Assembly (NCBI GenBank): GCA_902573065.1
Contig: CACGHX010000002.1
Location: forward strand, 30,911-94,910
Length of the DNA stretch: 64,000 nucleotides
From: an uncultured Pelagibacteraceae bacterium
Lineage (GTDB): Bacteria; Pseudomonadota; Alphaproteobacteria; Pelagibacterales; Pelagibacteraceae
Reading direction: 5' to 3'
The notes beneath the pieces were generated by a model. It saw nothing but the letters and a program-made list of their open reading frames with translations, was not told where the DNA came from and searched no databases. Shown in pieces: positions 50,755 to 53,850 of the stretch. Every line of letters begins with the position of its first letter. The stretch's first letter is position 1. The translations under genes and the position numbers were made by a program.

Positions 50755-51747
50755 TTAAATAAATTTTTTCGCTAAATGTTGTAGTAAATTTATATGATCA
50801 TCATTATCATTTAAACAAGGCACAACATCAAAATTTATGCCGCCACTTTTTATAAAACTTTCTTTACCTTGCATCGAAATTTCTTCTAATGTTTCTACAC
50901 AATCCGAAGAAAAGCCAGGACAAATTACTAAAACATTTTTTTTTCCCTCTGTAGGTAAATTTTCTAAGGTTTTATCAGTATAAGGTTGCAGCCATTCTTG
51001 AGGCCCAAATCTTGATTGAAACGTAGTTTGTATAGGTATTTGTTTAAATTGCTCAGATAGCAATCTCGTAGTTTTCTGACAATAACAGTGGTAAGGATCT
51101 CCTTTGTCAAAATATTTCTTAGGTATTCCATGATAAGAAGCGACGATAGTATCTGGCTTCCAATTTAATTCTGATAATTTTTTTTCAAGACTGTTTTTTA
51201 ATGCTTCTATATATAAAGGTTCAGACTCATAATGTGGTATTATTTGTAGACTTGGCTGCCATCTCATATCCATTAAAGTTCTATAAACTTCATCACATAC
51301 AGTTGCTGTAGTAGCTGCAGCGTACTGAGGGTATAAAGGCAAGATAACAATATTTTCACATCCAGATTTTTGTAGACTTTTCATTTTACTCTTTATACTT
51401 GGATTTCCATATCTCATAGCAAAGTCTATAATAATATTTTTTTCCTTTATTTTCTCAGATAACTTTTTTGTTTGCATAATTGTATAATATCTAAGCGGCG
51501 ACATATTCTCTTTTTTCATCCAAATTTCTTTATATGCCTTTGCTGTTTTTGATGGACGAAAATTAAGAATAAATAAATTAAGTATTATTTGCCAAAGAAT
51601 AGGATTTACCTCTATGACTCTTCTGTCAGACAAAAATTCCTTAAGATATTTTCTTATATCAAGCCATTTAGTTGAATCCGGAGTTCCAAGATTTACCAAC
51701 AATAATCCTGTTTTTCCAAATTTTATATCTGGATGGTCTTTATTCAT
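50755..51747 (-). CDS. hemH: Ferrochelatase
   Basis: GLLLVNLGTPDS, LPLYPQYAAATTAT, ASYHGIPKKY, PGFSSDCVETLEEI. Confidence 0.97.
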   Translation of the reverse strand: MNKDHPDIKFGKTGLLLVNLGTPDSTKWLDIRKYLKEFLSDRRVIEVNPILWQIILNLFILNFRPSKTAKAYKEIWMKKENMSPLRYYTIMQTKKLSEKIKEKNIIIDFAMRYGNPSIKSKMKSLQKSGCENIVILPLYPQYAAATTATVCDEVYRTLMDMRWQPSLQIIPHYESEPLYIEALKNSLEKKLSELNWKPDTIVASYHGIPKKYFDKGDPYHCYCQKTTRLLSEQFKQIPIQTTFQSRFGPQEWLQPYTDKTLENLPTEGKKNVLVICPGFSSDCVETLEEISMQGKESFIKSGGINFDVVPCLNDNDDHINLLQHLAKKFI

Positions 51748-52751
51748 TTATATTTTCTCACTAAGCTTGTTACAAATTTTATTATTTCAGGTTTAGTTTC
51801 TGGCAAAACCCCGTGTCCAAGGTTAAAAATATAAGGTTGCTCACGGAATATATCTAAATATTTTCTTACTTCTTTTTCTATTTCTTCTTTATTTTTTAAT
51901 AAGATTTTAGGATCCAATCCTCCTTGAATTACAGATGTTTTGATATTTTTTTTTATCCAATTTGGATCAACCTCGTAATCAATACTTATGCAGTCTGGTT
52001 TTACTGAAGAACAAAAATCTCCATAGTTTTTGTCGATACCTCTGGGAAAGCAAATCACTGGAATGTTGAGTTCTTTAACAAACTCCACAATTTTTTTAGT
52101 TGGTTCATAACAATAATCTTTTAGCTGATTTTCTGGAAGTAGACCTGCCCAAGAATCAAAAATCTGTATTATATTAGCACCTGCATCAACCTGGTTTTTG
52201 ATATGAACGCATATAATTTCTTCTAACTTTTTATATAATTTTTTTGTAAGAGCATTGTTTTTGGTTATTTCGTTAAAATTAAAATTTTTTTTTGGTGATT
52301 GTTTGTTGACCATGTATAAAAATAATGTCCAAGGAGCTCCTACGAAACCTATTAAGCTTTTTTTTCCTATTTCTTTTTTTACTTTTTTTATTGTTTCGTA
52401 GACTGGTTTAAGATTTTTAGTAAATGTTTTATTGTCTACTTTAGTTAAAATATCTATTTGGAGTTCATCTAATCGTGGGCCGTAACCTTTTTTAAAACTT
52501 ACATTTTGACCTAAACCATAAGGGATCATGAGAATGTCGGAGAAGATTATTGCTGCATCTAAATCAAATCTTTTAATTGGTTGTATTGTAATTTCTTTAG
52601 CTAAATCACTGTTCAAGCAAAGCTTAACAAAATCAGTATTTTGTTTTCTTATTTTCATAAACTCAGGTAAATATCTTCCGGCTTGCCTCATAAACCAGAT
52701 TGGGGTATCCCCAATTTTCTTGTTATTTATACAATCCAGCAGCCTGTTCAT
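51744..52751 (-). CDS. hemE: Uroporphyrinogen decarboxylase
   Basis: PIWFMRQAGRYLPE, FSDILMIPYGLG, GHGVLPETKPE. Confidence 0.97.
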   Translation of the reverse strand: MNRLLDCINNKKIGDTPIWFMRQAGRYLPEFMKIRKQNTDFVKLCLNSDLAKEITIQPIKRFDLDAAIIFSDILMIPYGLGQNVSFKKGYGPRLDELQIDILTKVDNKTFTKNLKPVYETIKKVKKEIGKKSLIGFVGAPWTLFLYMVNKQSPKKNFNFNEITKNNALTKKLYKKLEEIICVHIKNQVDAGANIIQIFDSWAGLLPENQLKDYCYEPTKKIVEFVKELNIPVICFPRGIDKNYGDFCSSVKPDCISIDYEVDPNWIKKNIKTSVIQGGLDPKILLKNKEEIEKEVRKYLDIFREQPYIFNLGHGVLPETKPEIIKFVTSLVRKYK

Positions 52752-53028
52752 AATAATTAATAATATAGTTATAAAATATATTTAATGTAATAGGTCATGT
52801 TAGTTAGTAAAATAGGGATATTTATCATTTTATCTACACTGACTTTTGATAAAGAAATAAGCTATAGGGCAATTATCTACACATTATCAACATTGTGAAT
52901 CAAGAGATATTAAATTATTAACATAAAAATGATTGTATAGAATTTGTTAATTGCTGTTATTAAATTAATTTTTTTTCTAAATTACTGTTAATATCCTCTA
53001 TTTATACTAATATTACTCACAACGCATA
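52752..53028. other. oriC: Candidate chromosomal replication origin (oriC)
   Basis: Divergent hemE/ppsR gap; TTATCTACA at 52831-52839 and 52874-52882, TTATCAACA at 52885-52893 (11-bp spacing), GAATC at 52898-52902, A/T-rich flank. Confidence 0.75.
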
Positions 53029-53850
53029 ATGAATAACAAATATCAAATATTTCTCATATCTGATTCAACGGGTGAAACCTTAGATAGAATTTTTTTAGCC
53101 TTACAATCACAATTTACAAATTTTGATTACGATAAAAAAGAATTTGTTTTTATAAGAACAGAGCAACAGATTGGAAAAATTATAAAAGAATGTAAGGAGA
53201 AAAACAATTCTATTATTTTATACACAATTGTCGATACCAATCTTGCTAAACACCTTGCAGCTCAGAGTTTAAAAAATAACATTCCATGTTTTGGTGTTTT
53301 AGGAAATCTAATCTTAAGTTTTTCTAAATTACTCAATCAAAAAGCTACACACAAACCTAGCGCTCAATATGTGCTTGATGAAGATTATTATAAAAGAATT
53401 GAAGCTATTCAATTCACAATGACACATGATGATGGGAAGAAAAATGAGGATATAAGTAAAGCAGACATAATTTTATTAGGTGTCAGCAGAACCAGTAAAA
53501 CACCGACCTCGATCTATCTTGCTAACAGAGGTTATAAAACATTAAATATTCCTTTAGTTTTAGATCAAAAAATTCCAGACATCCTTAAAAGCAATGAAAA
53601 CAAGCTGTGTGTTATTGGCCTAACGGCAGATCCGGAAAGGTTATCAGAGATAAGAAAGACCAGAGCTAATACTAATAGCAATATTGATTTAAAACTTTAC
53701 ACAAGTGTCGAAAAGATAAGAGAAGAAGTAGATAACTCTAAATTAATGTTTAAAAAATTTAGTTGGCCCACTATAGATGTAACTCGAAGATCTGTTGAAG
53801 AGACTGCTGCTTCTATTATTAAAATTTATGAAATACAAAAAAACAAATGA
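53029..53850 (+). CDS. Pyruvate,phosphate dikinase / PEP synthase regulatory protein (DUF299)
   Basis: FLISDSTGETLDRI, LLGVSRTSKTPTSIYLANRGYK, DVTRRSVEETAA. Confidence 0.95.
   Translation: MNNKYQIFLISDSTGETLDRIFLALQSQFTNFDYDKKEFVFIRTEQQIGKIIKECKEKNNSIILYTIVDTNLAKHLAAQSLKNNIPCFGVLGNLILSFSKLLNQKATHKPSAQYVLDEDYYKRIEAIQFTMTHDDGKKNEDISKADIILLGVSRTSKTPTSIYLANRGYKTLNIPLVLDQKIPDILKSNENKLCVIGLTADPERLSEIRKTRANTNSNIDLKLYTSVEKIREEVDNSKLMFKKFSWPTIDVTRRSVEETAASIIKIYEIQKNK

Follow-up and report, generated by a model that had tools for sequence, protein, structure and literature searches.

A 277-bp hemE/ppsR intergenic region as the putative chromosomal replication origin of a SAR11 bacterium

The non-coding gap between hemE and ppsR is very probably the oriC of a bacterium of the SAR11 group (Pelagibacterales), located at the ancestral hemE/COG1806 site. 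An origin at this place was proposed in the initial annotation of the sequence, and the GC skew, the conservation of the 9-mers and the flanking genes all support it. The window, i.e., the whole stretch of DNA analysed, is 64,000 nucleotides long and belongs to a 770-kb assembly of 40 contigs with a completeness of about 74%. Among named genomes, hemE picks out as relatives single-cell genomes of uncultured Pelagibacteraceae as well as Pelagibacter and Fonsibacter, all SAR11. The features of the region are listed below; hemE and ppsR are identified from NCBIfam profiles.

51744..52751, minus strand: hemE, uroporphyrinogen decarboxylase (TIGR01464, 351 bits, cut-off 303).
52752..53028, no strand: putative oriC, the non-coding hemE/ppsR gap, 277 bp, G+C 0.20.
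52784..52806, minus strand: hemE-proximal conserved block; plus strand reads AATGTAATAGGTCATGTTAGTTA, minus strand TAACTAACATGACCTATTACATT.
52830..52838, plus strand: candidate DnaA box 1, TTATCTACA; gap position 76–79 in most members of the genus, information 1.27.
52873..52881, plus strand: candidate DnaA box 2, TTATCTACA; private to the window genome, information 0.39.
52884..52892, plus strand: candidate DnaA box 3, TTATCAACA; gap position 129–133 in the genus, genus consensus TTATACACA.
52944..52964, plus strand: conserved TTGTTAATT...GTTATTAAA segment, information 1.11 and 1.07.
53013..53021, plus strand: candidate DnaA box 4, TTACTCACA, degenerate, two mismatches; gap position 257–263, information 1.21.
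53029..53850, plus strand: ppsR/PDRP, PEP synthase/PPDK regulatory protein, COG1806/DUF299 (NF003742, 309 bits, cut-off 225).

The two genes are divergent and separated by 277 non-coding bp, as annotated initially, and the profiles confirm both names. The gap is the longest of 74 in the window (median 3.5 bp) and, against a G+C content of about 0.24–0.38 along the window, is more A/T-rich than the genome. Its length is 269–282 bp in 27 family members, 271–281 bp in the sister family, despite the presence there of maf in place of ppsR, and 267–286 bp at 15 of 17 named SAR11 loci. Longer gaps (331 and 336 bp) are found at the other two, because the hemE start is probably placed too far inside. 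The gene beyond hemE varies within SAR11: two kinds of hemH or a FAD-type oxidoreductase-like gene, as named from the first residues only. At the place of window 50755–51747, this gene switches even inside one genus (L007, L009 and L010 versus L008, L011, L013 and L014). No Rfam match to a structured RNA is found in the gap. Elsewhere in the window, 1817–1869 on the minus strand matches Rfam family RF01793 (ffh sRNA).

The PpsR/PDRP family is COG1806/DUF299, so that ppsR of the window is the equivalent of Caulobacter CC_0001 and the window has the ancestral alphaproteobacterial arrangement. The experimentally mapped origin of Caulobacter lies between hemE and CC_0001 (COG1806, DUF299), and for Rickettsia the predicted origin has hemE and the COG1806 orthologue as its flanks (PMC1914354). 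The flanks of the gap in the window are identical to those of Caulobacter Cori, in support of the initial annotation, which recalls oriC beside hemE in Caulobacter and other alphaproteobacteria.

Across the window, one-mismatch DnaA boxes are nothing unusual (16, with 21 expected). The hemE/ppsR gap is the sole place in it where three such boxes fall within 250 bp, and the three share a strand; in 200 dinucleotide shuffles of its sequence the count never came to three. The 770-kb assembly contains 50 matches to TTATCNACA, no other three of which are as closely spaced. The 27 family gaps hold 42 one-mismatch boxes on the plus strand (hemE-to-ppsR), with 0.9 expected, and two on the minus strand, with 1.8 expected; the gaps being related, these counts are not independent observations. 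An exact TTATCCACA box is absent from the window.

Boxes 1 and 3 are kept in place across the genus, 53–54 bp apart, and the genus consensus at box 1 is TTATCTACA. At the place of box 2 the consensus is TTTTTTATT, and no relative has a one-mismatch box there. Boxes 2 and 3 start 11 bp apart in the window, a pairing found in the window genome only. The three same-strand 9-mers of the initial annotation are thus present and spaced as described, with starts one position lower (52830, 52873 and 52884, not 52831, 52874 and 52885); the second, and with it the 11-bp pair put forward there as about one helical turn, is not conserved. Box 4 adjoins ppsR, 128–129 bp from box 3. It is TTATCCACA in several relatives, and TTATCCACA or a one-mismatch form in many; the copy in the window has decayed to TTACTCACA at 53013. 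The remark that DnaA boxes are very few is true at one mismatch and had missed the conserved box position by ppsR and the hemE-proximal block. About half of the details stressed in that annotation are private to the window genome. Outside the genus the positional pattern breaks down: boxes of other genera and of the sister family drift, some of them degenerate, and the plus strand lacks a one-mismatch box in several other genera and in most sister-family gaps; most of the sister family has none at all. A near-consensus box on the minus strand, TTATTCACA, is present at gap position 39–42 in other SAR11 genera (L167, L168, L169, L171, L172, L174 and L177). It adjoins the hemE-proximal block; the window genus has TAACTAACATGACC at that place.

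Within the gap, conservation in the genus is highest at 52784–52801 (information 1.69 for GGTCATGTT), in the hemE-proximal block, which is also given as TGTAATAGGTCATGTT. The block core, ACATGACCTATTAC on the minus strand, occurs once per genome in 12 genomes of the genus, always just upstream of hemE. Read toward hemE, the order-wide alignment contains a box-like CACA, a G+C cluster, CTA/ATA/TTA triplets and then A/T, and the block of the window aligns with CACAGG-(CTA)n of other SAR11 lineages. The block is proposed to consist of a weak DnaA box, a G+C cluster and trio-like triplets. By its likeness to the module of DnaA box, spacer and DnaA-trios, the hemE-proximal end is proposed as the likely opening site. 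The rule of BUS, the bacterial origin unwinding system, requires a DnaA box with no more than two mismatches and at least three in-phase NAN DnaA-trios within 16 bp (PMC8287927). L038 and L049 resemble this module (DnaA box, G+C spacer, DnaA-trios) in having a hemE-proximal CACAGG followed by four perfect CTA triplets (complement 3'-GAT-5'), a score reached by none of 300 shuffles; boxes are weak there too. The loose trio score is not significant in most lineages. The window genus does not conform to the BUS rule, having a weak box TAACTAACA with four mismatches; the trios that follow in phase, read by eye, number no more than two (GAT-AAT). The block may also overlap the hemE promoter, and promoter-like matches on its minus strand extend over 52803–52775 and 52791–52762.

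Unwinding at the ppsR side, where the A/T stretch includes the T8 run, as the description in the initial annotation suggests, is an unlikely variant within the origin reading, and its probability is not to be added to those of the other alternatives. This side is A/T-rich and carries the moderately conserved TTGTTAATT...GTTATTAAA segment, a candidate ppsR promoter or origin A/T element. The T8 run, correctly described before as present, at 52969–52976, has an information of 0.45 and is not conserved, whereas the hemE-proximal side has the most conserved block and, between it and hemE, almost nothing but A and T in all lineages; some of these have CTA triplets there.

In the favoured reading, with opening beside hemE, DnaA would bind double-stranded boxes 1, 3 and 4, in one orientation and at fixed positions, and then oligomerise. 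The duplex would open most likely at the A/T-rich hemE-proximal end, beside the most conserved block, and helicase loading would follow.

It is very improbable that the gap is the divergent hemE/ppsR promoter region only, with the 9-mers as DnaA-regulated promoter sites or chance matches. Divergent genes require two promoters, and promoter-like matches do occur in the gap, including the two on the minus strand of the hemE-proximal block; their number (7, with 4.3 expected) is near the shuffle mean. A promoter region is not expected to hold its length after a swap of the right-hand gene, and the length is unchanged where maf replaces ppsR; the gene on the far side of hemE is variable too. SAR11 gaps usually comprise few bases, the boxes are strand-specific and phased, and the gap sits in the skew trough described below.

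The skew check suggested with the initial annotation was run on complete relatives, G034, read in 20-kb stretches, and G032, which was sampled; it is in these two only that the gap is placed near the GC-skew minimum. The window is largely collinear with G034 at about 1040–1098 kb. The trough of the circular cumulative GC skew of G034 extends over 1057–1092 kb and includes a local minimum that coincides with the gap (1090.0 kb); the maximum lies almost opposite, at 492 kb. The trough is about 35 kb wide and gives no resolution below tens of kb. The skew of G034 mostly follows gene orientation, and strand-corrected skew at its 4-fold sites gives no clear signal. For G032, a two-arm skew model ranks the gap third of 120 positions, in less sharp agreement than for G034. 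Two three-box clusters are present in G034 outside the trough (C1 near 43876 and 314430; L088 and L117), possibly by chance.

An origin elsewhere near the trough, e.g., at dnaA or where gene orientation switches 17–31 kb to the hemE side, is very improbable. In its favour are the absolute cumulative-skew minimum of G034 at 1072.5 kb, 17.5 kb to the hemE side of the gap, and a local skew minimum inside the window near 21 kb. The former point is a 38-bp gap (window 34984/35023), the latter has a gap of 77 bp only, no box cluster is found at other points of the trough, and dnaA lies 62–86 kb from the hemE/ppsR gap (about 5–8% of the genome) in assemblies with both genes on one contig, its nearest TTATCNACA match in the window's own genome being more than 3 kb off. 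An apparent gap of 621 bp at 21.6 kb was rejected; it holds a GTG-start gene missed by ATG-only calling, and the 77 bp are what is left.

A DnaA is encoded, with the box-reading motif RDHTTV retained. The window's genome (74% complete) has four OmpR-type regulators, none of which is recognised as CtrA; more complete relatives have the same four kinds, and the result agrees with the reported absence of CtrA from Pelagibacter (PMC2877005). CtrA sites (TTAA-N7-TTAA) number 7 in the family gaps (4.9 expected) and 0 in the sister family (1.5 expected), with none in the window. Such sites are present in Cori and not in all hemE/COG1806 origins, being absent, e.g., in E. ruminantium (PMC1914354), and are not defining. 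Control of the origin by CtrA is rejected, as no CtrA is recognised and its sites are not enriched. Homologues of CcrM and GcrA are present in single copy, above family cut-offs. The GAATC (GANTC) pointed out initially is present, at 52897–52901 (start 52897, not 52898), and is private to the window genome. GANTC is found twice in 27 family gaps (5.2 expected) and never in 21 sister-family gaps (6.8 expected), and is also scarce genome-wide; control by CcrM through GANTC is rejected, since the GAATC is private and GANTC is below expectation in the gaps. In SAR11 origins GANTC is nearly absent despite the CcrM homologue: the 48 gaps together hold 2, where about 12 would be expected. The IHF site WATCAANNNNTTR is found 8 times in family gaps (2.1 expected) and 0 times in the sister family (0.7 expected), in related sequences with counts that are not independent. 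L159 (own genome, C3, near 2464) encodes a DNA-binding protein of OmpR type whose receiver-like N-terminus is degenerate and which has no NCBIfam match at 1e-20; similar proteins, L163 and L165, are present in both other genomes looked at.

The gap shares with origins of the hemE/COG1806 type its flanks, a box cluster above chance, A/T-richness and, in complete relatives, the skew position. Like Cori of Caulobacter crescentus (hemE CC_3763/CC_0001 COG1806), it is A/T-rich intergenic DNA with DnaA boxes between the same genes (PMC1914354). It differs from Cori in length (277 versus 404 bp), in its three one-mismatch boxes, which share a single orientation, in the lack of a conserved GANTC, and in that neither an excess of CtrA sites nor a CtrA protein is recognised. 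The predicted Rickettsia origin has the same flanks and is likewise very A/T-rich; at 383–396 bp it is longer than the gap of the window (PMC1914354). CcrM is absent from Rickettsiales (PMC3973325), whereas SAR11 has homologues of CcrM and GcrA; CtrA, a further difference from Rickettsia, is not found here. The putative origin is of this known hemE/COG1806 kind, small and without CtrA. No description of a SAR11 origin in this detail was found in open-licence literature.

As a tentative generalisation, somewhat short of an even chance, the SAR11 origin may be a stripped-down, CtrA-free element of nearly constant length, about 270–280 bp, in which a few boxes of one orientation and fixed phasing are combined with an unwinding block near hemE that is lineage-specific and takes the place of the canonical module of DnaA box and trios. 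Few cells on Earth are as abundant as those of SAR11, and estimates of their growth rate from read depth need the position of the origin, for which dnaA is used as a proxy by some tools (PMC7852909). The conserved element of 270–280 bp is a precise anchor for origin-based growth indices. As a small natural origin, it bears on how few DnaA boxes suffice and on how initiation is timed without CtrA.
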